Origin: a gamma proteobacterium L18
Lineage (GTDB): Bacteria > Pseudomonadota > Gammaproteobacteria > Pseudomonadales > Pseudomonadaceae
DNA: 64,000 nt
Assembly (NCBI GenBank): GCA_000497835.1
Contig: KI547165.1
Location: forward strand, 439,806-503,805
Reading direction: 5' to 3'
The position numbers were made by a program, and so were the translations under genes. A model generated the notes under the pieces. That model was given only the letters and a program-made list of their open reading frames with translations. It was not told where the DNA came from and ran no database searches. Below, piece by piece: positions 40,020 through 52,574 of this stretch; the stretch's first letter is position 1, and each line of letters opens with the position of its first letter.

Positions 40020-41738
40020 CTATTTCAGGAAATTGTTCACCAGCAAATCCTTCACATCCCCCGCACGCCCACCCAGCACGGCCTTGGCCGAATACAGCGC
40101 CATGCCCGCCACCTGGGCGAACTCGACCTTGGCCGGCATCACCAGCTCTTCGGGGTTGACCTTCACGTCCAGCAGCGCCGGCCCGGGTTGCGCCAGAAAC
40201 GCCTGCACCGCCTCCTCAAGCTCGGCCCCCTCACTGACCTGCCGGCCCCACAACCCCATGGCCTTGGCCACCTCGGCAAAGTCCGGGTTATGCAAGTCGG
40301 TGTAGTTGTCCAGCAAGCCCTCGACCTTCTGCTCGATCTGCACGAAATTGAGCGAGGCGTTGTTGTACACCACCACCTTGATCGGCAGTTTCTCTTGCAC
40401 CGCGGTCAGCAGATCGCCCAACAGCATGGCCAGGCCGCCATCACCCGACAGCGAGATCACCTGTCGGTCCGGATACGCTTTTTGCAAACCCAGCGCCTGG
40501 GGCATGGCGTTGGCCATGGTGCCGTGGCGCAGGCTGGTCAGCGTGCGGCGGGCGCCGTTGACGTTGATATGGCGCAGCACCCAGACCATCGGCGAGCCGC
40601 CGTCGGCGGTGAACAGTGCGTCGCTGCTGGCGTGCTGGTCCAGCAGGTGGGTCAGGTACTGCGGGTGGATCAGCTCGCCCTCGGTGTGACGCTGGTCGTG
40701 TGCCATCACCTTGAGGGTGTGCTGGCGGTGCTTGAGGCATTCCTCCAGCCAGCCCACGGTGGTTTTCTCCTCCACCAGCGGCAGCAGCGCCCGCAGGGTA
40801 GGCAGCACATCGCCCACCACGCCCAGGTCCACCGGGTGGCGGCGGCCCAGGTGCGTGCCCTTGCGATCGATTTGGATGACCTTGGCCTTGGCGGGGTAGA
40901 ACTGCTTCCAGGCGAAATCGGCGCCCAACAGCAGCAGGGTGTCGCACTCCATCATCGCGTGGTAGCCGGACTCGACGCCGAACACCCCGGTCATGCCCAT
41001 GTTGTAGGGGTTGTCGTATTCGACGAAATCCTTGGCCCGCGAGGTGTGGGCGATGGGCGCCTTGAGCAGGCGGGCCAGTTCCACCAGTTCGTCATGGGCG
41101 CCGGCGCAGCCGAAGCCTGCGTAGATCGACACTTTTTTGCCCGCAGCCAGCAGGGCCGCGATCTGCGCCAGTTCCTCGGGGTGGGGCTGGGTGACGGGGC
41201 GCGGGTGGTGGGCGGCGAAGGGCGCATCGTCCTTGACCTCGGCCAGGCTGATGTCCGACGGCAGGATGATCACCGCCACGCCGCCTTCATTCAGCGCGGT
41301 CTGGGCGGCCAGTGCAGTGACCCGGCGCGCCTGTTCGGGGGTGTACACCTGTTCGCAGAACACTGTGCAGGGGCCATAGATGGCTTTGAAATCCACTTCC
41401 TGAGGGAAATCCATGCCTAGCTCGCTGGTGATCACTTGGCTGGCGATCAGCACCATGGGCGCGCCGTTGCGCTGGGCCTCGAACACACCGTTGATGAAAT
41501 GAAGCCCGCCCGGGCCACAAGAGCCCGCGCAGGCCGTCAGCCGCCCACTGATGAACGACTCGGCGCCAGCGGCGAAGGCGGCGACTTCCTCGTGGCGCAC
41601 ATGCACCCACTGGATATCGCTGCGGCGGATGGCGTCGGTGACGTGGTTGAGGGTGTCGCCGACGATGCCGTAGCAATTGCGGACCCCGGCGGCCTGAAGG
41701 GTTTCGATGACGATTTCAGCGACTTTCTTGCTGGGCAT
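40020..41738 (-). CDS. poxB: Pyruvate dehydrogenase (quinone), PoxB-like
   Basis: Thiamine-diphosphate and FAD enzyme of 572 residues, the same length as E. coli PoxB, which oxidises pyruvate to acetate and CO2 and passes electrons to membrane ubiquinone. The ThDP motif GDGGLAMLLGDLLTAVQ...VVVYNN is at about 430-460; the catalytic glutamate lies in HVRHEEVAAFAA; GSCGPGGLHFINGVF is typical. The C-terminus, which in PoxB forms the lipid-triggered helix, is present. AGGAAG precedes the ATG at 41738. No regulator is adjacent. Confidence 0.88.
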   Translation of the reverse strand: MPSKKVAEIVIETLQAAGVRNCYGIVGDTLNHVTDAIRRSDIQWVHVRHEEVAAFAAGAESFISGRLTACAGSCGPGGLHFINGVFEAQRNGAPMVLIASQVITSELGMDFPQEVDFKAIYGPCTVFCEQVYTPEQARRVTALAAQTALNEGGVAVIILPSDISLAEVKDDAPFAAHHPRPVTQPHPEELAQIAALLAAGKKVSIYAGFGCAGAHDELVELARLLKAPIAHTSRAKDFVEYDNPYNMGMTGVFGVESGYHAMMECDTLLLLGADFAWKQFYPAKAKVIQIDRKGTHLGRRHPVDLGVVGDVLPTLRALLPLVEEKTTVGWLEECLKHRQHTLKVMAHDQRHTEGELIHPQYLTHLLDQHASSDALFTADGGSPMVWVLRHINVNGARRTLTSLRHGTMANAMPQALGLQKAYPDRQVISLSGDGGLAMLLGDLLTAVQEKLPIKVVVYNNASLNFVQIEQKVEGLLDNYTDLHNPDFAEVAKAMGLWGRQVSEGAELEEAVQAFLAQPGPALLDVKVNPEELVMPAKVEFAQVAGMALYSAKAVLGGRAGDVKDLLVNNFLK

Positions 41739-41827
41739 TGGACTTCCTCGGGAGAGCGTGCGTAGAGGATTAGTCACCCTGCATTGCCGAGGAGTTCAGA
41801 TGCTGCCGAAGGACAACGCCGCTCTCA

Positions 41828-42148: not shown

Positions 42149-43162
42149 TTATCCGCGGTAGCGCAGCGTCGCCGAGGGCAGTTCGCCGTAGCGCTTGCGG
42201 TATTCCTGGGAAAACCGCCCCAGATGGGAAAAACCCCATTTCAGCGCAATGTCAGTCACCGATTCGTGCCCTGGGCTGCGCAGCGCCTGATGCACGCGCT
42301 CCATGCGCACGTCACGCAAAAAGGCCATGGGGCTGGTGCCACGATATTCCCTGAAACCTGCGAACAGGGTGCGCACACTGACCCCGGCATGCTCGGCCAG
42401 TTGCTCGATGGCCAGCGGCTCATGGGCATGGGCCAGGATGAACTCTTCGGTGCGCTTGACAAAAAATGGCGAGATCTTGCGCGGCGGCGCCGGGGTGTTC
42501 AGGCCGTCCTGCAGGTTGTTCGGCTGCCCGTACAGCAAGGCATTGATCAGCGTGGATTCGAACTGCTTGAGCACCAGCGGGTGATGAATCGGGTGCTGCG
42601 GGGCGGCGAGGGCGTCGGCCAGGGTGCCGAGCAGTTGCAGGAAATAGTCGGCGGCAGGCGTGGTCAGGTCAAACCTTGGCTCGAAGCGCAAGGGCTGCTG
42701 CAACGGGTGCCCCAGGTGCTGGGCGCAGTGGCGCTGCACTTCCTCGCGGTCCAGGCGCAGGGTCAGTTGCGGCGAATCAGCGGCCCAGCGCATGGACACC
42801 GGGGCTTGCGGTGAAATAATCGAGGCGCAAACGGGGCTGGAGGTGAACTGCATTCCATCGCATTGGATCTCGGCGCTGCCGCGCGTGGGGATCTGCACCA
42901 GAAAGAAGTCTTCCAGGCGGCCGGGGTCGATGGTCACCGGCGCGCCGTATTCGAGCAGGTTCAGCGACAGCCGGCCCAGGCGCACATGGTGCATCGAGGC
43001 ACTGACTTCGCGGGTGGGCGCCGCCACCTTCAGGTCATGAGGCTTGAACACATCGCCCACCCGCTCGCGAATACGTTCGCGGTCGTGCAGCAGGAACAGA
43101 CGGTTCTGCGCCGTGAACAGCGGCGTGTGTTCAAAACGGGCACCACCAGCTTGCGGGTTCAT
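42149..43162 (-). CDS. AraC-family regulator, probable activator of the indole operon (IifR-like)
   Basis: Regulator of 337 residues. An N-terminal AraC-binding-like domain (to about 210) resembles the XylS/BenR/AntR group (LEYGAPVTIDPGRLEDFFLVQIPTRGSAEI). The C-terminal double helix-turn-helix shows IEQLAEHAGVSVRTLFAGFREYRGTSPMAFLR and GFSHLGRFSQEYRKRYGELPS. It is divergent from the five-gene oxidation operon, and a TGCA-N6-GGATA site lies between them. I infer that it activates that operon in response to indole or a product. GAGG precedes the ATG at 43162. Confidence 0.83.
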   Translation of the reverse strand: MNPQAGGARFEHTPLFTAQNRLFLLHDRERIRERVGDVFKPHDLKVAAPTREVSASMHHVRLGRLSLNLLEYGAPVTIDPGRLEDFFLVQIPTRGSAEIQCDGMQFTSSPVCASIISPQAPVSMRWAADSPQLTLRLDREEVQRHCAQHLGHPLQQPLRFEPRFDLTTPAADYFLQLLGTLADALAAPQHPIHHPLVLKQFESTLINALLYGQPNNLQDGLNTPAPPRKISPFFVKRTEEFILAHAHEPLAIEQLAEHAGVSVRTLFAGFREYRGTSPMAFLRDVRMERVHQALRSPGHESVTDIALKWGFSHLGRFSQEYRKRYGELPSATLRYRG

Positions 43163-43230
43163 GTCTACCTCACTCGTGCACGGTTTCAAGGCAGTGTGGG
43201 CCATAACGTTACGCGGCGTTTTCGCTGGGC

Positions 43231-43326: not shown

Positions 43327-43424
43327 CAGTTTTCGCCGAACGGCACGCCGGAAAACTTTCCGCAGCCTGAGGACAGACCCTGCAGCCAGCGGATAGTGAG
43401 CACCGAGCGCCGGCCCCAGGATGG

Positions 43425-43456: not shown

Positions 43457-44704
43457 ATGAACGGTCGCTATATCAGCGTCACGGCAGCTGACGGACAACA
43501 GTTTCAGGCGTACCTGGCTCCCGCCATTGGCGGCAGTGGCCCGGGCGTGGTGCTGTGCCAGGAAATATTCGGCGTCAACCAGGCCATGCGCGAGGTGGCC
43601 GACTTCCTCGCCGAGGAAGGCTACAGCGTGCTGGTGCCTGACCTGTACTGGCGGCAGGCACCGGGCGTGGAACTGGGTTACGGCGAGGCGGATTTCGCCC
43701 AGGCCTACGCCTTGTACCAAGCCTTCGACGAGGACGCCGGTGTCGAGGATATCCGCACCAGCCTGAGTGCCTTGCGCCAGCTGCCCGAGTGCACCGGCGC
43801 CGCCCAGGGCGTGGTCGGCTATTGCCTGGGCGGCAAGTTGGCGTATCTGGCGGCCTGCCGCTTGCCGGAAGTGGCCTGCGCCGTGGGCTATTACGGCGTG
43901 GGCATCGAACATTCCCTGCCCGAACTGGAAGGCCTGCAGGGCCGCCGACTTATCTTGCACATGGCAGGCCTCGATCAGTTCTGCCCCGGCGAAGCCCGCG
44001 CCGCCATATTTGCCGCCGCCCAGCCGCTGCCGGGCGTGGAAACTTACCTGTACCCCGGCGTCGATCACGCCTTCGCCCGCCCCAACGGCCACCACTACGA
44101 CAAGCCCGCTGCGCTGATGGCCCATCAACGCACCGTGGCCGCGCTGCGCCGTACCTTGGGGCCGGACTACGACCTCTCGGCCCTATGGGAAGAACATATC
44201 CGTCACGAGTTCGATACCCGCGACGTGCCCGCCACCATGGCAACCATGGTCGCCCAGCCCTACGTCAACCATATCCCGACCATGACCGGCGGGGTGGGTT
44301 ATGCGCAGCTCAGCCGCTTCTATCAACACCATTTCGTCCACGGCAACCCCCAGGACATGGCCCTCACGCCTATCTCCCGCACGGTGGGCGCCACGCAGAT
44401 CGTCGACGAATTCATCATGAGCTTCACCCACGACAGCGAGATCGACTGGCTGCTGCCCGGCATCGCGCCCACCGGCCGCGCCGTGCAAATCCCCATGCTG
44501 GGGGTGGTCAAGTTCCGCGGCCCCAAGCTGTGCCATGAACACATCTACTGGGACCAGGCCAGCGTGCTGGTGCAGATCGGCCGCCTGGACCCCACCGGCC
44601 TGCCCATCGCCGGCGTCGAGACCGCGCACAAGCTGCTCGATGAAAGCCTGCCGTCCAACACCCTGATGCCCAACTGGCCCACCAGCGCCGGCAAGCGCGC
44701 CTGA
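43457..44704 (+). CDS. Dienelactone hydrolase-NTF2 fusion, IifA-like
   Basis: A 415-residue two-domain protein. Residues about 1-235 are a dienelactone-hydrolase fold with CQEIFGVNQAMREVADFLAEEGY, nucleophile Cys in VGYCLGGK and His in YPGVDHAFARP. Residues about 245-400 are an NTF2/SnoaL-like cone (FYQHHFVHGNPQDMALTPISRTVG, DEFIMSFTHDSEIDWLLPG). From what I recall of the Acinetobacter iif operon, the first gene encodes a cofactor-independent oxygenase that turns 3-hydroxyindolin-2-one into anthranilate; gene position and neighbours here fit that role. Which domain would be catalytic is unknown. It is followed by the SDR after nine bases. Confidence 0.68.
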   Translation: MNGRYISVTAADGQQFQAYLAPAIGGSGPGVVLCQEIFGVNQAMREVADFLAEEGYSVLVPDLYWRQAPGVELGYGEADFAQAYALYQAFDEDAGVEDIRTSLSALRQLPECTGAAQGVVGYCLGGKLAYLAACRLPEVACAVGYYGVGIEHSLPELEGLQGRRLILHMAGLDQFCPGEARAAIFAAAQPLPGVETYLYPGVDHAFARPNGHHYDKPAALMAHQRTVAALRRTLGPDYDLSALWEEHIRHEFDTRDVPATMATMVAQPYVNHIPTMTGGVGYAQLSRFYQHHFVHGNPQDMALTPISRTVGATQIVDEFIMSFTHDSEIDWLLPGIAPTGRAVQIPMLGVVKFRGPKLCHEHIYWDQASVLVQIGRLDPTGLPIAGVETAHKLLDESLPSNTLMPNWPTSAGKRA

Positions 44705-44713
44705 GGAGGTGAT

Positions 44714-45517
44714 ATGCCCACATTTCTGAACCCCGATGCCTTGCAAGGCAAGGTGGCACTGATCAGCGGTGGCGCCACCCTGATCGGCATGGCCGTGGCC
44801 CGTGGCCTGATCGCCGCCGGTGCCCGGGTGGTGCTGTTCGACATCGATGCCCAGGCAGGCCAGCAGGCGGCCGAGCAGTTGGGCCGCCGGGCGCAGTTCT
44901 TTGCCGTGGATATCACCCAGGACGCGCAGATCAGCAAGGCCCTGGCCACGGTGCACCAGACGCTGGGCCCGGTCAGCCTGTTGATCAACCTGGCCTGCAC
45001 CTACCTGGATGACGGCCTGGCCTCCAGCCGCCAGGACTGGTTGCAGGCGCTCAACGTCAACCTGGTGTCGGCGGTAGCGCTGACCCAGGCCCTGCACCCG
45101 GACCTGGCGGCCAATCGCGGCGCCATCGTCAACTTCTCGTCCATCTCGGCCGGCTGCGCCCAGACCGGCCGCTGGCTGTACCCGGTGTCCAAGGCTGCGC
45201 TCCAGCAATTGACCCGGAGCATGGCCATGGACCTGGCGCCGGACGGCATCCGCGTGAACTCGGTGTCGCCGGGCTGGACCTGGTCGCGGGTGATCGAGCA
45301 GGCCAGTGGCGGCAACCGCAGCAAGGCCGACCAGGTGGCCGCCAGCTACCACCTGCTGGGCCGCCTGGGCGAGCCCGACGAGGTGGCCAACGTGGTGACC
45401 TTCCTCTGTTCGCCCGCCGCCAGCTTTGTCACCGGCGCCGACTACGCGGTGGACGGCGGCTACTCGGCCATGGGCCCGGAACAGAACCTGCCGGCCATTG
45501 CCCGCCTGGCGCACTGA
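44714..45517 (+). CDS. Short-chain dehydrogenase, IifB-like
   Basis: SDR of 267 residues, expected to oxidise indole-2,3-dihydrodiol to 3-hydroxyindolin-2-one with NAD(P). The coenzyme loop is a variant (LISGGATLIGMAVARGL) and the usual NNAG reads NLACTYLDDG. The catalytic residues are visible: Ser in NFSSISAG and YPVSK. The end RLGEPDEVANVVTFLCSPAASFVTGADYAVDGGYSAM is classical. GAGG precedes the ATG. Function is inferred from the operon. Confidence 0.77.
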   Translation: MPTFLNPDALQGKVALISGGATLIGMAVARGLIAAGARVVLFDIDAQAGQQAAEQLGRRAQFFAVDITQDAQISKALATVHQTLGPVSLLINLACTYLDDGLASSRQDWLQALNVNLVSAVALTQALHPDLAANRGAIVNFSSISAGCAQTGRWLYPVSKAALQQLTRSMAMDLAPDGIRVNSVSPGWTWSRVIEQASGGNRSKADQVAASYHLLGRLGEPDEVANVVTFLCSPAASFVTGADYAVDGGYSAMGPEQNLPAIARLAH

Positions 45518-45555: not shown

Positions 45556-46797
45556 ATGCGTCGTATCGCTATCGTTGGCGCCGGCCAGGCCGGCCTGCAA
45601 CTTGGCCTGGGGCTACTCGCCCAGGGCTACCACGTGACCTTGACCACCAACCGCACGGGCGAGCAGGTTCGCACCGGCAAGGTCATGTCCAGTCAATGCA
45701 TGTTCAACACCGCGCTGCAGACCGAGCGCGACCTGGGCTTGAACTTCTGGGAGCAGCACTGCCCGGCCGTGGAAGGCATCAGCCTGACCGTGCCGCACCC
45801 ACAGCAGCCCGGCGAGCGCCTGTTCAGCTGGGGCTCGCGGCTGGAGCGTTACGCCCAGTCAGTGGACCAGCGCCTGAAAATGCCGGCCTGGATGGATGAG
45901 TTCGTCAAGCGCGGCGGCGAACTGGTGATCGCCGACGTGGGCATCGCCGAGCTGGAAACCCTGACCCAGTCCCACGACCTGGTGCTGCTGGCGGCGGGCA
46001 AGGGCGAGGTGGTCAACCAATTCGAAAAAGACCCCCAGCGCAGCGCCTTCAGCCAGCCGCAGCGGGCCCTGGCCCTGACCTATGTGAAAGGCATGACCCC
46101 GGCGTCGCCGTTCTCGCGGGTAGCCTTCAACCTGATCCCGGGGGTGGGCGAGTACTTCGTGTTCCCGGCGCTGACCACCAGCGGCCCTTGCGAAATCATG
46201 GTGTTCGAAGGCATCCCCGGCGGGCCGATGGACTGCTGGCACGACATCAAGACCCCCGAAGCGCACCTGGCCAAAAGCCTTGAAATCGTGCGCCAGTACC
46301 TGCCATGGGAAGCCGAGCGCTGCCAGCACCTGACCCTGACCGATGACAACGGCTTTCTCTCGGGCCGCTTCACACCCATGGTCCGCAAGCCGGTGCTGAC
46401 CCTGCCGTCCGGGCGCACGGTGCTGGGCATGGCCGATGCGCTGGTGGTCAACGACCCCATCACCGGCCAGGGCGCCAACAACGCCGCCAAGTGCAGCAAG
46501 GTCTACCTGCAGGCGATCCTCGACCAGGGCGCACGCACCTTTGATGCGCAGTGGATGGCGCAGACCTTCGAGCAGTACTGGAGCTACGCCCGCCACGTGG
46601 TGCAGTGGACCAACACCTTGCTGACGCCGCCGCCCGAGTACCTGCTGGGCCTGCTGGGCGCTGCCAGCCAATCGCAGCCCCTGGCTGCGGCCATCGTCAA
46701 CGGCTTCGACGACCCTCGCACCTTCGCCCCCTGGTGGTTCGACGCCGAACAGTGCCAGGTCTTCATCGATAAAAACACCCGGCACGTGGCTGCCTGA
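45556..46797 (+). CDS. StyA-like flavoprotein monooxygenase, IifC-like indole oxygenase
   Basis: FAD-binding oxygenase of 413 residues, the size of styrene monooxygenase StyA. FAD loop RIAIVGAGQAGLQLGLGLLAQGY at residues 3-25 and the late ADALVVNDPITGQGANNAAKCSKVY that contacts the flavin. StyA-type enzymes use reduced FAD from a partner reductase, encoded next. In the indole operons this enzyme epoxidises the indole C2-C3 bond, giving the dihydrodiol. Styrene itself is less likely because no StyC/StyD genes are present. Confidence 0.82.
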   Translation: MRRIAIVGAGQAGLQLGLGLLAQGYHVTLTTNRTGEQVRTGKVMSSQCMFNTALQTERDLGLNFWEQHCPAVEGISLTVPHPQQPGERLFSWGSRLERYAQSVDQRLKMPAWMDEFVKRGGELVIADVGIAELETLTQSHDLVLLAAGKGEVVNQFEKDPQRSAFSQPQRALALTYVKGMTPASPFSRVAFNLIPGVGEYFVFPALTTSGPCEIMVFEGIPGGPMDCWHDIKTPEAHLAKSLEIVRQYLPWEAERCQHLTLTDDNGFLSGRFTPMVRKPVLTLPSGRTVLGMADALVVNDPITGQGANNAAKCSKVYLQAILDQGARTFDAQWMAQTFEQYWSYARHVVQWTNTLLTPPPEYLLGLLGAASQSQPLAAAIVNGFDDPRTFAPWWFDAEQCQVFIDKNTRHVAA

Positions 46798-46808: not shown

Positions 46809-47333
46809 ATGAGTCTCGATCTTTCTTTGCGTACCGCCCAAGGCTGCGACCCTCGTGACCTGCGCGGCGTGCTGGGCCAGTTCGCCACCGGCGTCACGGT
46901 GATCACCACCTGCACCGCCGACGGTCGCAAGGTGGGCATGACCGCCAACTCGTTTTCCTCGGTGTCACTGGAGCCGGCGCTGGTGCTGTGGAGCCTGGCG
47001 CGCTCGGCGCCCAGCCTGGCCGATTTCAGCGCCGCCAGCCACTTTGCGATCAATGTGTTGGGGGCCGGCCAGCACGGCCTGTCGCGACATTTTTCCCGGC
47101 CGGCCAGCGACAAGTTCGCCGGCGTTGCCCACGCCAGCGGTACCGCCGGCGTGCCGCTGCTGGACGATGTGGTCGCCACCCTGGTGTGCCGCAATGTCAC
47201 CCAGTACGAGGGCGGTGACCACCTGATCTTCATTGGCGAAATCGAACACTACCGATACAGCGGCGCAGAACCGCTGGTCTTCCATGCCGGCCAATACCGG
47301 ATCGCCGCCGCGCATCCTGAGCTGGCCCAATAA
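46809..47333 (+). CDS. Flavin reductase, IifD/StyB-like
   Basis: Flavin:NAD(P)H oxidoreductase of 174 residues of the HpaC/StyB type. Typical segments are LRGVLGQFATGVTVITTCTADGRKVGMTANSFSSVSLEPALVLWSL (residues about 18-63) and the late GDHLIFIGEIEHYRYSGAEPLVFHAGQYRI with the conserved GDH. It supplies reduced FAD to the StyA-like oxygenase. It follows that gene by 11 bases and shares its AGGAG-type ribosome-binding site region. Confidence 0.85.
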   Translation: MSLDLSLRTAQGCDPRDLRGVLGQFATGVTVITTCTADGRKVGMTANSFSSVSLEPALVLWSLARSAPSLADFSAASHFAINVLGAGQHGLSRHFSRPASDKFAGVAHASGTAGVPLLDDVVATLVCRNVTQYEGGDHLIFIGEIEHYRYSGAEPLVFHAGQYRIAAAHPELAQ

Positions 47334-47359: not shown

Positions 47360-48295
47360 ATGAAATCGCGAATGATGTCTGTGTGCGGGGCCGGGCTGCT
47401 GATGGCCCAGGGGGCAGGGGCCTACGACTTGCCGGTGGTCAACCTGGGGCTGACCAGCTTTCTGGACGGTGGCCTGCCCGCAGGGCCGGGGTGGTATTTG
47501 CAGGAGTATTTCCAGAACTACAGCGCCGACAAACTGCGCGACAAGGACGGCAAGGCCCTGGCGTTGCCCAAGCAGGACCTGGACTATCAGGTGGCCGTGA
47601 CCCAGCTCAGCTACCTGTCCACCCTGCGCCTGGGCAACGGTAGCCTGGGCTTGAACGCAGTGCTGCCGGTGGTCACGCGCATGCGCGTCGACGACGGCCT
47701 GAACAACGCCGCCTTGCGCGGGCAGAGCGGGGTGGGGGACCTGCTGATCGGGCCGTTCATTCAGTTCGACCCGGTGATGGGGCCGGACGGGCCGAAGTTC
47801 GTGCACCGCATCGAGTTGCAGGTCAACCTGCCCACCGGCGAGTACGACGACCGCCACGCGGTGAATCCGGGCAACAACGCCTGGTCATTCGACCCGTACT
47901 GGGCAGCGACTTACTGGTTCACGCCAAAATGGACCGCGTCGATTCGCGCCCATTACCTGTACAACGGCAAGAACGATGACCCGGCGTTGTCATTGGGGGC
48001 GGTTGACAGCATCCAGGCGGGGCAGGCGTTGCATGCCAACTTTGCCACCGAGTATGCGGTCACCGAGCATTTGCGGTTGGGGCTTAACGGTTACTGGCTC
48101 AAGCAGATCACCGATACCCAGATCGATGGGCATGACGTGGCGGGGCGGCGCGAGAAAGTCTGGGCCATTGGGCCGGGGGGCATGTACAGCTTTTCGGCCA
48201 ATGATCATGTGTTCGTGAACGCGTACTTCGAGCAGGATGTGCAGAACCGTCCTGACGGGAGTCGGGTGCAGGTGCGGTACGTGCATCACTTCTAA
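47360..48295 (+). CDS. Outer-membrane channel, SphA/phenol-degradation MetA type
   Basis: Predicted outer-membrane beta-barrel of 311 residues with a signal peptide (cleavage likely after AQGAGA, residue about 21). The many alternating aromatic/glycine strands (WYLQEYFQNYSADKL, GVGDLLIGPFIQF, YDDRHAVNPGNNAWSFDPYWAATYWFTP) and the aromatic end VRYVHHF match the SphA/MetA_deg family found in aromatic degradation operons. It probably helps entry of the aromatic substrate. It is the last gene of the five-gene operon, ended by a REP doublet. Confidence 0.8.
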   Translation: MKSRMMSVCGAGLLMAQGAGAYDLPVVNLGLTSFLDGGLPAGPGWYLQEYFQNYSADKLRDKDGKALALPKQDLDYQVAVTQLSYLSTLRLGNGSLGLNAVLPVVTRMRVDDGLNNAALRGQSGVGDLLIGPFIQFDPVMGPDGPKFVHRIELQVNLPTGEYDDRHAVNPGNNAWSFDPYWAATYWFTPKWTASIRAHYLYNGKNDDPALSLGAVDSIQAGQALHANFATEYAVTEHLRLGLNGYWLKQITDTQIDGHDVAGRREKVWAIGPGGMYSFSANDHVFVNAYFEQDVQNRPDGSRVQVRYVHHF

Positions 48296-48454: not shown

Positions 48455-49453
48455 TCAATGCCGCCGCCGACGCTCCAGCGTCTGCGACGGCAGCTCGCCG
48501 AACAGCCGATTGTAATCCTGGGCAAAGCGCCCCAAATGGTTGAACCCCCACTGCGAAGCAATCCCGGCAATGTTGTAGCCGCCGTGCTCCTGCAACAAAC
48601 TGCGCCGCGCCGACTGCAGGCGATAGCGCTTGAGGTAGGCCACCGGCGACACTCCCAGGTACACCTTGAACGCATCATGCAGCTTCTGCGCGCCAATGCC
48701 CGCCGCCCGCTCAATGTCGGCCAGGCGGATGTCCTCGCCGCAGTTGTCCTCGATAAACTGCCGCGCCCGGGTGACAAACACCGGGCAACGGCGCTGTGCC
48801 TGGTCACTCAAGGCGCTGGAGTAGTTGTTGGGCTGCGACAGAATCAAGCCCTTGATCAGGCTGCGTTCCAGGTCCCGTGCCATGGGTAGGTGGCCGAAGT
48901 ACTCGCTGCTGCCGTCCATCTCGTCCACCAGGTAGCGCACCATGCGCCACCACGACGCCGTGGCGCCCAGTTCGGCGTTGATGCACGGGTCAAACTCCAG
49001 CGGCGTCGCTGCCGGCTGTTCCAGCAATTCTTCCAGCACCCGCTGCATGGAGGTGCAGTCGATGGCCACCTGCAGCTTGCGGCAGTTGCCACTGATGCTC
49101 AGTTGCTGCGGGTCGAACGGCGAGACGATCAGCCCCGTGCCCACGTCCGATTTCAGCCGGCGCTTGCCGCAGTCCAGTTCCTGCTCGCCATCCAGCGGCA
49201 GGCTGATGCTGTAGCGCTTCAGCGAGCTGTCCGGGTCCACGCCGATCACCACGTCGGTGCCGTACTGGATACGCCCCAGCACCGTGGACAGGCCACTGAG
49301 CACACTGGCCGAATGCTCGAATTCGATGCGTTGCGGCGCGCTTGCCTCAAGGCTGTGCGGCCCGCAGATGGTCGACATCCAGGCGCGGGCGCCGTCCAGA
49401 TCGTGGTGGGTGGCGCGAATGCCGCGCGGTTGCGGCTCGGAAGGTAACTTCAT
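48455..49453 (-). CDS. antR: AraC-family activator of anthranilate dioxygenase, AntR
   Basis: XylS/AraC-type regulator, 332 residues, close to AntR of P. aeruginosa. The N-terminal effector domain is followed by IRLADIERAAGIGAQKLHDAFKVYLGVSPVAYLKRYRL and GFNHLGRFAQDYNRLFGELPSQTL, the two helix-turn-helix units. It is divergent from antABC, the standard arrangement, and should activate that operon with anthranilate. It is related to the AraC protein at 42149, sharing GELPS at the end, which suggests a duplicated pair for the two steps. Confidence 0.87.
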   Translation of the reverse strand: MKLPSEPQPRGIRATHHDLDGARAWMSTICGPHSLEASAPQRIEFEHSASVLSGLSTVLGRIQYGTDVVIGVDPDSSLKRYSISLPLDGEQELDCGKRRLKSDVGTGLIVSPFDPQQLSISGNCRKLQVAIDCTSMQRVLEELLEQPAATPLEFDPCINAELGATASWWRMVRYLVDEMDGSSEYFGHLPMARDLERSLIKGLILSQPNNYSSALSDQAQRRCPVFVTRARQFIEDNCGEDIRLADIERAAGIGAQKLHDAFKVYLGVSPVAYLKRYRLQSARRSLLQEHGGYNIAGIASQWGFNHLGRFAQDYNRLFGELPSQTLERRRRH

Positions 49454-49636: not shown

Positions 49637-51040
49637 ATGAGCAGCGCAAAAACCGTAAGCCAATGGCAGCACTTCGTTGAAGGCTGCCTGGATTTTCGCC
49701 CCGTGGAAGGGGTGTACCGCATCGCCCGGGAGATGTTCACCGAGCCCGAGCTGTTTGACCTGGAGATGGAGCTGATCTTCGAGAAGAACTGGATCTACGC
49801 CTGCCACGAAAGCGAAATCGCCAACAACCACGACTTCGTCACCCTGCGCGCCGGTCGCCAGCCGATGATCATCACCCGCGACGGCAACGGCCAGCTCAAT
49901 GCCCTGATCAACGCCTGCCAGCACCGGGGCACCACGCTGACCCGGGTGGGCAAGGGCAACCAGTCCACGTTTACCTGCCCGTTCCATGCCTGGTGCTACA
50001 AAAGCGACGGCCGCCTGGTGAAGGTCAAGGCGCCGGGTGAGTACCCCGAAGGCTTCGACAAGGCCACCCGTGGCCTGAAAAAGGCGCGCATCGAAAGCTA
50101 CAAGGGCTTTGTGTTCGTCAGCCTCGACGTGCACGGCAGCGACAGCCTGGCCGACTACCTGGGCGACGCCAAGGTGTTCTTCGACATGATGGTGGCCCAG
50201 TCGCCCACTGGCGAACTGGAGGTGCTGCCCGGCAAATCGGCCTACACCTACGAAGGCAATTGGAAGCTGCAGAACGAGAACGGCCTGGACGGCTACCACG
50301 TCAGCACCGTGCACTATAACTACGTGGCCACCGTGCAGCACCGCCAGCAGGTCAATGCCCAAAAAGGCGAGGCGGCCAGCGGCACCCTGGACTACAGCAA
50401 GCTGGGCGCCGGCGACGCTGAGACCGATGACGGCTGGTTCTCGTTCCACAACGGCCACAGCCTGCTGTTCAGCGACATGCCCAACCCCAGCGTGCGCCCC
50501 GGCTACGCCAGCATCATGCCGCGCCTGGTGCAAGAGTACGGTCAAGGCCGCGCCGAGTGGATGATGCACCGCCTGCGCAACCTCAACATTTATCCCAGCA
50601 TGTTCTTCCTCGACCAGATCAGTTCGCAGCTGCGCATCATCCGTCCCATCGCCTGGAACAAGACCGAGATCAACAGCTTCTGCCTGGGGGTCAAGGGCGA
50701 GTCGGACGCTGACCGGGAAAACCGCATTCGTCAGTTCGAGGATTTCTTCAACGTGTCCGGCCTGGGCACGCCGGATGATCTGGTGGAATTCCGCGAAGCC
50801 CAGCGCGGCTTCCAGGCACGGCTGGAACGCTGGAGCGACATCTCCCGTGGCCACGACAAATGGGTCGAGGGCGCCACGCCCAACAGCCAGGCCATCGGCA
50901 TCAACCCGGTGCTGACCGGCACCGAATTCACCCACGAGGGGCTGTACGTCAATCAGCACGGCAACTGGCAGCGCTTCCTGCTCGAAGGCCTGGCGCGCAA
51001 AGCCGCTGAAGAAACCGCCCTGAAACTGCGTGAGGTGTAA
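49637..51040 (+). CDS. antA: Anthranilate 1,2-dioxygenase large subunit AntA
   Basis: Rieske non-heme iron oxygenase alpha subunit, 467 residues (AntA is about 464). The Rieske cluster ligands are in CQHRGTTL and CPFHAWCY; the mononuclear iron histidines are in NENGLDGYHVSTVHYNY. It dihydroxylates anthranilate to an unstable diol that yields catechol, CO2 and ammonia. AAGGAG lies eight bases before the ATG at 49637. It starts the antABC operon, divergent from antR. Confidence 0.93.
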   Translation: MSSAKTVSQWQHFVEGCLDFRPVEGVYRIAREMFTEPELFDLEMELIFEKNWIYACHESEIANNHDFVTLRAGRQPMIITRDGNGQLNALINACQHRGTTLTRVGKGNQSTFTCPFHAWCYKSDGRLVKVKAPGEYPEGFDKATRGLKKARIESYKGFVFVSLDVHGSDSLADYLGDAKVFFDMMVAQSPTGELEVLPGKSAYTYEGNWKLQNENGLDGYHVSTVHYNYVATVQHRQQVNAQKGEAASGTLDYSKLGAGDAETDDGWFSFHNGHSLLFSDMPNPSVRPGYASIMPRLVQEYGQGRAEWMMHRLRNLNIYPSMFFLDQISSQLRIIRPIAWNKTEINSFCLGVKGESDADRENRIRQFEDFFNVSGLGTPDDLVEFREAQRGFQARLERWSDISRGHDKWVEGATPNSQAIGINPVLTGTEFTHEGLYVNQHGNWQRFLLEGLARKAAEETALKLREV

Positions 51041-51042
51041 CC

Positions 51043-51534
51043 ATGAATGCCCAGCTTCACTTCCAAGTCGAACAATTCCTGTACCACATGGCGGCGGCCT
51101 GCGACGCCCAGGACTGGGATCAGTACCTGGACTGCTTCAGCGAGGACAGCGAATTCCATTTGCCCCAGTGGGATTCGGAACACGTCTACACCCAAGACCC
51201 GAAAAAGGGCATGTCGCTGATCTACTACCCCAACCGCGGCGGCCTGGAAGACCGGGTGTACCGCATCCGCACCGGCAAGGCCGCATCCACCATCCCCATG
51301 CCGCGCACGGTGCACCTGATCAGCAACGTGCGCATCGCCCAGGGCCAGGCGGACGAGCTGGAGGTGCAGGTCAATTGGCACACCCTGTACTACCGGCTGC
51401 AAGTGGCAGAGCAGTTCTTCGGCCGCGCCAGTTACCGCCTGCGCCCCCACGGCGACAGCTGGAAGATCGCCCGCAAGCACGTGGTGCTGCTCAACGACAC
51501 GATCAATTCGGTCCTTGATTTCTATCACCTCTGA
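51043..51534 (+). CDS. antB: Anthranilate 1,2-dioxygenase small subunit AntB
   Basis: Beta subunit of 163 residues, the exact family length. It has the NTF2-like fold of aromatic-ring dioxygenase small subunits (VEQFLYHMAAACDAQDWDQYLDCFSEDSEFHLPQWD at the N-terminus, SYRLRPHGDSWKIARKHVVLLND at the C-terminus). It is structural, holding the alpha3beta3 hexamer. It begins two bases after the antA stop. Confidence 0.93.
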   Translation: MNAQLHFQVEQFLYHMAAACDAQDWDQYLDCFSEDSEFHLPQWDSEHVYTQDPKKGMSLIYYPNRGGLEDRVYRIRTGKAASTIPMPRTVHLISNVRIAQGQADELEVQVNWHTLYYRLQVAEQFFGRASYRLRPHGDSWKIARKHVVLLNDTINSVLDFYHL

Positions 51535-51551
51535 TGCCGCGAGTAGCCACC

Positions 51552-52574
51552 ATGACGTACAAAGTCGCTTTCAGTTTTGCCGACGGCAAGACCCTGTTCT
51601 GCAACGTGAACAACAACGAACTGCTGCTGGACGCCGCCCTGCGCAGCGGCATCACCTTGCCCATGGATTGCCGGGAGGGGGTGTGCGCCACCTGCCAGGG
51701 GCAGTGCGAGTCGGGGCAGTACACCCAGGATTACGTCGACGACGAGGCGCTGTCGGCCGCGGACCTGGCGCAGCGCAAGATGCTCAGTTGCCAGACGCGG
51801 GTGAAGTCGGACGCGGCGTTCTATTTCGATTTTGATTCCAGCCTGTGTGACAACACCGGCCCTAAGGTTTTCCAGGGCACGGTCAGCCATGTGGAGCGCG
51901 TGTCGGAAGGCACCGCCATTGTGCGCCTGGCGCTGGATGAGGCGGCCGGTGCGCTGGATTACCTGCCGGGGCAGTACGCGCGTCTGCAGATACCGGGGAC
52001 AGGCGTCAGCCGCTCGTACTCGTTCGCCAATGCGCCGGGGGGCCATAGCCTGGAGTTTCTGATCCGCTTGCTGCCCAGCGGGGCGATGAGCGATTACGTG
52101 CGTGATCGCTGCCAGGTGGGCGATGTCATCCCGTTCGAGGCGCCGCTGGGCACGTTCTACCTGCGCCATGTCGACCGGCCGCTGACCTTGGTGGCTGGGG
52201 GCACCGGGTTGTCGGCGTTTTTGGGCATGCTTGAGCAGATGGCCGCCCAGGGCGGGTGCGGGCAGCCGGTGCACCTGTATTACGGCGTGCGCACGCCGCA
52301 GGATTTATGTGAGGTGGCGCGCATTGAAGCCTTTTCCGGGCAGATCCCCGGTTTCCAGTTTATTCCGGTGATCAGTGAACGCGAGGCGGTGTGGGAGGGG
52401 CATCGCGGCTATATCGTCGACCACCTCGACGCGCGGGCGTTGAGCGAGGTGCCCAGCGATGTGTACGTCTGCGGGCCGCCGCCGATGGTGGAGTCGATCA
52501 AGGACTGGCTGCAGGCGCAGGCGCTGCCGGCGGTGCGGTTGTATTTCGAGAAATTCGCCGATAGCGGCGCGTGA
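51552..52574 (+). CDS. antC: Anthranilate 1,2-dioxygenase reductase AntC
   Basis: Electron-transfer component of 340 residues, the family length. A chloroplast-type [2Fe-2S] domain (DCREGVCATCQGQCESG, then C in LSCQTR) comes first, then an FAD domain (RSYSFAN at about 153) and an NAD domain (LVAGGTGLSAFLGMLE, VYVCGPPPMVESI). It passes electrons from NADH to AntA. The ATG at 51552 was chosen over an upstream ATG at 51534 overlapping antB. Confidence 0.93.
   Translation: MTYKVAFSFADGKTLFCNVNNNELLLDAALRSGITLPMDCREGVCATCQGQCESGQYTQDYVDDEALSAADLAQRKMLSCQTRVKSDAAFYFDFDSSLCDNTGPKVFQGTVSHVERVSEGTAIVRLALDEAAGALDYLPGQYARLQIPGTGVSRSYSFANAPGGHSLEFLIRLLPSGAMSDYVRDRCQVGDVIPFEAPLGTFYLRHVDRPLTLVAGGTGLSAFLGMLEQMAAQGGCGQPVHLYYGVRTPQDLCEVARIEAFSGQIPGFQFIPVISEREAVWEGHRGYIVDHLDARALSEVPSDVYVCGPPPMVESIKDWLQAQALPAVRLYFEKFADSGA

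Follow-up and report, generated by a model that had tools for sequence, protein, structure and literature searches.

The window, a 64,000-nucleotide stretch of DNA from the gamma proteobacterium L18, carries a complete iifR-iifABCDE-antR-antABC cluster, and its iifA gene, which encodes a fusion of a dienelactone hydrolase (DLH) domain with a SnoaL/NTF2-like domain, is an ordinary member of the known IifA/DhoA family. IifA has been described as a cofactor-independent oxygenase that converts 3-hydroxyindolin-2-one to anthranilate (PMC6221969; PMC10934121, where it is 'putative'), and its two-domain structure with a C-terminal SnoaL fold is already in print (PMC7225977). The question addressed is which half carries out the chemistry, and comparison across the family suggests that the O2-dependent ring opening is probably the work of the C-terminal SnoaL/NTF2-like half and not of the DLH half. 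The biology of the window is otherwise ordinary, that of an indole degradation cluster of the Pseudomonas type whose last step is anthranilate dioxygenase, and the genes are as follows.

42149..43204, - strand: iifR-like AraC-family regulator, divergent from iifA (Pfam AraC_binding_2 and HTH_18)
43457..44704, + strand: iifA, 415-amino-acid DLH-SnoaL/NTF2 fusion, 66-88% identical to 40 aligned orthologues
44714..45517, + strand: iifB, short-chain dehydrogenase (SDR; domain match, adjacency to iifA conserved across loci)
45556..46797, + strand: iifC, styrene-monooxygenase-like indole oxygenase (Smoa_sbd; StyA model match below its cut-off)
46809..47333, + strand: iifD, flavin reductase (domain match)
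47360..48295, + strand: iifE, outer-membrane channel of the MetA-pathway type (PF13557)
48455..49453, - strand: antR-like AraC-family regulator (best NCBIfam match AndR, below cut-off)
49637..51040, + strand: antA, anthranilate 1,2-dioxygenase large subunit (TIGR03228 above cut-off, searched from 49640)
51043..51534, + strand: antB, anthranilate 1,2-dioxygenase small subunit (TIGR03231 above cut-off)
51534..52574, + strand: antC, electron transfer component (NF008822 above cut-off)

The iifA reading frame is intact (415 amino acids plus stop), with the coordinates and strand that the first-pass annotation gave it. The longest open reading frame starts 12 codons earlier, at 43421, and would encode 427 amino acids, but a GGAG 9 nucleotides 5' of the ATG speaks for the start at 43457, as does the in-frame stop that lies no more than 12 codons upstream of the aligned start at 23 of 81 loci. 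The gene heads the iif operon, in which the intergenic gaps are 9 (A-B), 38 (B-C), 11 (C-D) and 26 bp (D-E), and in its domain order (DLH, then the SnoaL-fold domain), its length of about 415 residues and its position as first gene of iifABCDE it has the features of an IifA. The source genome holds this single DLH-NTF2 fusion together with three weaker DLH-type matches (29-34% identity). A genome scan for relatives of iifA found 184, of which 80 were kept, and at most of these the homologue heads iifBCD or iifBCDE. The Acinetobacter orthologues (67-74% identity; 416 amino acids in A. baumannii) share the domain order, the iifABCDE order and the nearby ant genes and do not differ in kind, the one variation being that iifR lies upstream of and divergent from iifA in the window whereas it lies beyond iifE in most Acinetobacter loci. 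DhoA of the WHOP island of the Pseudomonas syringae complex is likewise an orthologue: the P. amygdali protein (L027) shows 87% identity, and iifBCDE and antA accompany its gene. DhoA has also been called a cofactor-independent oxygenase, its operon being split into dho and ipo (PMC12538310), so that only the gene names differ. The comparison with IifA made in the first-pass annotation is thus borne out by the presence of the whole iif/ant cluster, and the domain fusion that it proposed is confirmed by matches to PF01738 and PF12680 above their cut-offs.

The N-terminal half has the fold and the catalytic residues of a dienelactone hydrolase. PF01738 matches residues 16-232 (E 4.8e-37, 128.1 bits against a cut-off of 21), and residues 6-229 align to the solved dienelactone hydrolase 1din (E 8.2e-43) in such a way that E36/C123/D171/H202 of that enzyme fall on E36/C123/D173/H204 of IifA, which agrees with the full catalytic set first reported for it. 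An AlphaFold2 model of the full-length protein (mean predicted local distance difference test score, pLDDT, 88.9, with residues 270-272 and 274-277 under 50) has the DLH fold in its N-terminal half, which superposes on 1zi9/1din with Z 36 and 1.4 A over 229-230 residues. The features of this half, with their conservation among 108 fusions (107 distinct sequences; L080 and L103 are the same gene) and in the lineages with inactivated ('dead') DLH domains described below, are these.

43463..44164, + strand: DLH domain, residues 3-236, alpha/beta-hydrolase fold (PF01738; 1din/1zi9 Z 36)
43562..43564, + strand: Glu36, DLH catalytic set (Glu in 107 of 108 fusions; lost in dead-DLH lineages)
43823..43825, + strand: Cys123, DLH nucleophile in GYCLGGK (Cys in 107 of 108 fusions; Gly in 17 dead-DLH proteins)
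43973..43975, + strand: Asp173, DLH triad (present in all 108 fusions; missing from 14 of 15 Caballeronia-like dead-DLH proteins; kept in L156 and L130)
44066..44068, + strand: His204, DLH triad (108 of 108 fusions; Arg, Ser, Ala or Pro in dead lineages)

The sole exception to Cys123 is L210, a live fusion with Ser at this position, a nucleophile that suits hydrolysis better than thiol chemistry; in L061 residues 35-38 differ at QEIF in a local garbled stretch that is possibly a sequencing error. In dienelactone hydrolase Arg81 and Arg206 hold the substrate carboxylate. The first of these aligns with Phe80 of IifA, which is invariant in 81 of 81 sequences and makes the pocket unlike that of a dienelactone hydrolase, and the second aligns with R208, which varies in 16 of the 108 fusions. 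Apart from this Phe80 and the fused NTF2 domain, IifA shares fold and catalytic residues with the Pseudomonas dienelactone hydrolase (1din) family. With the catalytic residues kept and one carboxylate-holding Arg replaced, the DLH half appears to be a live hydrolase acting on a different and less acidic substrate.

The C-terminal half is harder to place by sequence. PF12680 (SnoaL_2) matches residues 248-358 weakly, though above its curated cut-off (E 6.1e-7, 30.4 bits against 27), and since the full-length structural comparison gave only DLH-fold proteins among the matches listed, this half was folded and searched alone. The resulting model (pLDDT 81.1, predicted template modelling score 0.74) has the SnoaL/NTF2 fold. 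Its best match is the putative polyketide cyclase 3f7x (Z 14.0, 131 residues, 2.2 A); the values for SnoaL2 and AclR are Z 12.6 and Z 12.5, and TsrD and AclR rank first in Foldseek. The matched SnoaL/ketosteroid-isomerase folds are pocket proteins, and AclR and SnoaL2 are aromatic polyketide tailoring enzymes; both are among the nearest structural relatives and are titled putative hydroxylases in the PDB. The NTF2 half shares their fold at 16-18% identity, whilst its HEHIYWDQ motif does not recur in them complete. A narrow profile of the NTF2 half found nothing under E 0.26 among PDB sequences, and a wider one gave three matches at E 0.0013-0.0031, including AclR (0.0013 over 95 positions) and IdmH (0.0031). 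TsrD of the thiostrepton pathway, the top Foldseek match (E 1.7e-7, 15% identity), had no sequence-level match in these profile searches of the PDB; its gene is one of those that the tryptophan-derived quinaldic acid moiety is predicted to require (PMC5682303). Another SnoaL protein, IacI of auxin degradation, did not convert a related substrate when tested together with IacB in E. coli (PMC7225977). In the NTF2 half 22 positions, including Q373, are invariant in all 145 sequences compared, and among them are the candidate active-site residues.

44171..44671, + strand: SnoaL/NTF2-like domain, residues 239-405, favoured putative O2 site (PF12680; NTF2 fold model)
44195..44197, + strand: His247, candidate active-site residue (invariant in 145 of 145 sequences)
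44207..44209, + strand: Glu251, candidate active-site residue (invariant in 145 of 145; Thr in paralogues L284/L285)
44429..44431, + strand: His325, candidate base (invariant in 145 of 145 sequences)
44537..44542, + strand: Glu361-His362, candidate active-site pair (invariant in 145 of 145; Leu-Gln in L284/L285)
44549..44557, + strand: Trp365-Asp366-Gln367 (invariant in 145 of 145; D366 aligns with an Asp of the polyketide cyclase IdmH)

Three lines of evidence favour this half as the site of ring opening: its higher invariance, the existence of homologues that have no DLH domain, and two lineages in which the DLH domain is dead and the NTF2 signature is kept. As to the first, 81 of 170 positions of the NTF2 half are invariant in 81 orthologues, against 31 of 235 in the DLH half. 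The NTF2 half is closer to that of the window than the DLH half is in 105 of 105 fusions, with median identities of 83% and 61% respectively (one non-fusion row included in the medians). L136 was dropped from the count of 105, being a non-fusion whose 'DLH' part is an over-extended open reading frame, L276 was left out because a contig edge cuts the gene, and L097 holds no family gene.

Homologues without a DLH domain were found with profiles of the NTF2 half. These matched in 11 of 299 genomes sampled across the phylum and in 27 of 289 sampled from one alphaproteobacterial class; at family level the alphaproteobacterial family f57 gave matches in 49 of 75 genomes and family f19 in 112 of 249. 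In family f57, where 32 of 56 listed places were read, 29 loci encode an NTF2-like protein alone, starting at the domain boundary, and three encode fusions. No IifA-type DLH (E up to 1e-8) was present in the fetched stretch around any of the 29 stand-alone genes, and a full search of one such genome gave no other DLH better than 36% identity. The f57 stand-alone proteins are 62-73% identical to the NTF2 half of the window and keep 44 of the 51 positions that are invariant in the 108 fusions (40 when two dead-DLH proteins are included), the seven that differ being mostly single exceptions. Looser stand-alone forms (42-53% identity) occur in six further genomes, and also on plasmids of Sphingomonas, Oscillatoria, Trichormus and Streptomyces; the Sphingomonas form has all 23 tabulated NTF2 positions.

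Fusions with a dead DLH domain were encountered in two groups, and on the tree live and dead DLH are separated by two changes. In two of three genomes examined of one alphaproteobacterial family (L156 and L130) the nucleophile elbow GYCLGG has become GFGRG, with C123G and H204R, and with E36G seen in L156. In 15 Caballeronia-like genomes the elbow reads GxGxGG, with E36D and C123G, His204 is replaced by Ser, Ala or Pro, and D173 is lost in 14 of the 15, whilst each protein retains the full set of ten NTF2 residues checked; a sixteenth case of this type lies on a named plasmid of Caballeronia sp. Sq4a. The plasmid genes L219, L222, L226 and L227 match genomes L259, L266, L260 and L263 in the last 300 residues and were counted once. 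The proportion of 15 in 40 family f19 loci is not a frequency, as the 40 were picked partly by open-frame length to catch dead-DLH copies. Pfam nevertheless scores three dead-DLH proteins at 85-88 bits as DLH, and the NCBI name for the annotated ones is 'dienelactone hydrolase family protein'. In 14 dead-dead pairs (the first 14 of the 21 pairs formed by 7 of the 15 dead sequences) the ratio of non-synonymous to synonymous change (omega) was 0.04-0.15 for the NTF2 half and 0.15-0.37 for the DLH half, and ten live pairs of the same family gave 0.03-0.08 and 0.08-0.20. By these values purifying selection on the dead-DLH proteins is strong in the NTF2 half and weaker in the DLH half; the reading frame is nevertheless kept, from which it would follow that the dead DLH domain probably still serves as a scaffold.

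The idea with which the analysis began, that a hydrolase scaffold performs the O2-dependent ring opening, is therefore not the one favoured, as relatives have lost the DLH domain or its catalytic residues and have kept the NTF2 half. The accompanying remark, that the sequence does not make evident which domain is active, holds for a single sequence and much less so for the family comparison. If the NTF2 half is the active one, its invariant set (H247, E251, H325, E361-H362, D366) would deprotonate 3-hydroxyindolin-2-one to an electron-rich enolate, which would react directly with O2 at C3 without a cofactor. The peroxide would then close on the C2 carbonyl and the C2-C3 bond would break, giving N-carboxyanthranilate, either directly or through the cyclic isatoic anhydride, and from it anthranilate and CO2. 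The formulae balance, in that C8H7NO2 plus O2 equals C8H7NO4, which is N-carboxyanthranilate and which minus CO2 is anthranilate. The persistence of the DLH triad in nearly every other fusion suggests that the DLH half probably has an auxiliary hydrolytic role, for which opening of the cyclic anhydride is suggested: Cys123/His204/Asp173 would open this compound, or a misformed lactone. Such an anhydride can open slowly without an enzyme, which would explain why the DLH domain could die or be absent. Hod and Qdo offer an analogy for the oxygen chemistry, which shows that a base and an electron-rich substrate suffice for such a reaction (PMC3961685). The chemistry proposed for IifA is of the same type (deprotonation, direct O2 attack, C-C cleavage to an anthranilate derivative), but Hod and Qdo act on 3-hydroxy-4-quinolones at an alpha/beta-hydrolase site, whose His/Asp dyad is present in IifA and has been lost in natural relatives of it with an intact NTF2 half. 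Hod and Qdo give CO. Hod was not among the 27 PDB sequences matched at E up to 0.1, nor among the 50 structural matches listed, absence from which excludes nothing. Literature searches found no pairing of SnoaL-like or NTF2-like proteins with cofactor-free or cofactor-independent oxygenases, and passages from three of the seven papers that name both dienelactone hydrolase and SnoaL do not deal with this fusion.

The gene contexts of the homologues bear on whether the relatives can speak for IifA at all. Among 144 loci searched, an IifC homologue was present at 58, a Rieske cluster at 12, a molybdenum hydroxylase at 20 and no query gene at 54, the last including L097. The Rieske cluster, at 12 Pseudomonas-type loci, comprises a reductase, Rieske alpha and beta subunits, an isochorismatase-like hydrolase, an SDR and the IifA-like fusion, with antA nearby at L065 and L084. 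One example is L064:2594-8233, and the same cluster lies on the carbazole plasmid pCAR1 near antABC (L218, NC_004444.1 13117-18647). It may serve an indole-type substrate, with a Rieske oxygenase in place of the flavin-dependent one; a literature search on these pCAR1 genes found nothing. A P450/oxidoreductase gene stands beside the IifA-like gene in 12 of 15 dead-DLH loci. At 20 of the 29 stand-alone loci the fetched stretch holds a molybdenum hydroxylase homologue, from a few bases to several kb away; in many the distance is up to several kb, and the association may be mere synteny. No iifBCD was found at the dead-DLH and stand-alone loci, and none of the query genes was found beside the alphaproteobacterial fusions. 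The occurrence of 3-hydroxyanthranilate 3,4-dioxygenase beside one homologue and of antABC near others is consistent in terms of product, and the contexts as a whole fit an enzyme making anthranilates from differently made hydroxy-oxindoles.

Individual loci among these deserve mention in their own right. A dead-DLH IifA-like gene is flanked on one side by a metal transporter of the Nramp type and on the other by a fused cytochrome P450/oxidoreductase on three annotated plasmids of Caballeronia, as follows.

L219:5639-10521, L226:3639-8525 and L302:2946-7820: Caballeronia plasmid P450 loci

On plasmid p1 of Caballeronia sp. Sq4a (L223:3652-7239) the IifA-like gene is found beside an SDR, 3-hydroxyanthranilate 3,4-dioxygenase, an amidohydrolase and RidA, a context that suggests a hydroxylated substrate giving 3-hydroxyanthranilate. 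At L096:12886-15775 the large subunit of a CoxL/XdhA-type molybdenum hydroxylase comes directly before the stand-alone NTF2 gene.

The alternative that survives best, although it must be considered rather unlikely, is that the relatives have changed their reaction: IifA would need both halves, for instance through a shared active site or channelling, and the DLH-less and dead-DLH proteins would be isomerases or cyclases acting on other substrates. It draws on the differences in context given above (molybdenum hydroxylase, P450, lack of iifBCD) and on R354, a position invariant in the fusions, which differs in 29 of 29 stand-alone forms and is unchanged in the dead fusions, as would be expected of an interface residue. 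It has to contend with the 44 of 51 fusion-invariant positions that stay invariant in the stand-alone forms, or 40 with the two dead-DLH proteins, and with contexts supplying oxygenases that could make the same type of hydroxy-oxindole substrate. Given Hod and Qdo, the hydrolase half as the oxygenase was also weighed seriously and was put second because of the DLH losses. His204/Asp173 would then deprotonate, Cys123 would only position the substrate and the NTF2 half would bind substrate or aid folding. For this there is the precedent of alpha/beta-hydrolase-fold dioxygenases that need a His/Asp dyad and not the Ser nucleophile (PMC3961685), together with the presence of D173 and H204 in all 108 fusions and the altered pocket at Phe80. 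It is nonetheless improbable when His, or His and Asp, have been lost in two lineages with an intact NTF2 half, when 29 close homologues have no DLH domain and when the DLH half evolves faster in every one of the 105 fusions. That IifA is only a hydrolase, its DLH half opening the lactam and later oxidation being spontaneous or due to other enzymes, would accord with the complete triad and with the hydrolases of fungal lactam and lactone catabolism (PMC10512309), but is very improbable in that direct conversion of 3-hydroxyindolin-2-one to anthranilate by IifA is reported (PMC6221969; PMC10934121), hydrolysis alone cannot remove a carbon and the triad is dispensable in nature.

The order of fusion and loss can be approached from two trees. 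In the first, the stand-alone pair L096/L135 fell outside all fusions (support for the fusions 96/82), but approximately unbiased (AU) tests rejected neither its placement with the alphaproteobacterial fusions (p 0.315) nor that with other fusions (p 0.455). A larger tree, for which the root was chosen by the analyst, the bootstrap had not settled and several branches were long, had one change between stand-alone and fused forms (92/89). From these trees it is likely that DLH and NTF2 were fused once, and the stand-alone forms may represent losses of DLH.

A number of observations weigh against assigning the oxygen chemistry to the NTF2 half. The AU tests allow the f57 stand-alone forms to have lost a DLH domain, the neighbours of the DLH-less and dead relatives differ from those of iifA, and these proteins may do something else. 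Besides R354, G355 differs in 11 of the 29 stand-alone forms, and some of the signature residues are missing from the stand-alone forms of Cyanobacteria and Streptomyces. Each DLH catalytic residue is retained by 107-108 of the 108 fusions, which implies that the DLH half matters where it is live, and a live triad was present in 50 of the 70 family f19 places examined out of 132 (20 of the 40 mentioned above and the 30 best-scoring, all of them live). The divergent DLH-NTF2 paralogues L284 and L285 (about 51% identical) carry C123S, H204R, E251T, E361L and H362Q and are thus altered in both halves, so that the family contains likely changes of function; these two possibly have a new one. Sequence matches to SnoaL-fold proteins are weak (AclR, E 0.0013), N-formylanthranilate has been assigned to the product of a Providencia gene, GS-A, as what it makes, which would mean different chemistry (PMC9871250), and isatoic anhydride was not found in the literature as an intermediate of the indole pathway.

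A broader reading, put forward tentatively and at somewhat less than even odds, is that the NTF2 halves represent a widespread group of small cofactor-free dioxygenases that open lactam rings with O2. They would act alone in Alphaproteobacteria, Cyanobacteria and Streptomyces and would operate behind flavin, Rieske, P450 and possibly molybdenum oxygenases, a DLH domain having been added once in Proteobacteria to hydrolyse the cyclic anhydride and having died at least twice since. Members of such a family would at present go under the names dienelactone hydrolase, ester cyclase or NTF2 protein. The folds in which O2 activation with neither metal nor flavin is studied are still few. Should the NTF2-like half of IifA be such an enzyme by itself, a protein of about 180 residues that exists in nature with no DLH partner would be a small and tractable model, and the names dienelactone hydrolase and NTF2 family protein would be wrong for many genes. 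The dead-DLH and stand-alone relatives make the question of the active domain directly testable with natural proteins.

Some further observations concern neighbouring genes. A 585-residue open reading frame upstream of the iif cluster (window 40020-41777, - strand) looks by eye like a thiamine-diphosphate enzyme, and a search of the 81 iifA loci at E up to 1e-10 gave no homologue of it. On two cyanobacterial plasmids (L299:4857-6371 and L300:4857-6356) an SDR gene comes immediately after the stand-alone NTF2 gene; its product has about 33% identity to IifB, a level that is ordinary for SDRs. Finally, Pseudomonas viridiflava p2.C9 (L015 and L064, contig NZ_UUIS01000075.1) carries one IifA-like gene in an iif operon and a second in the Rieske cluster.

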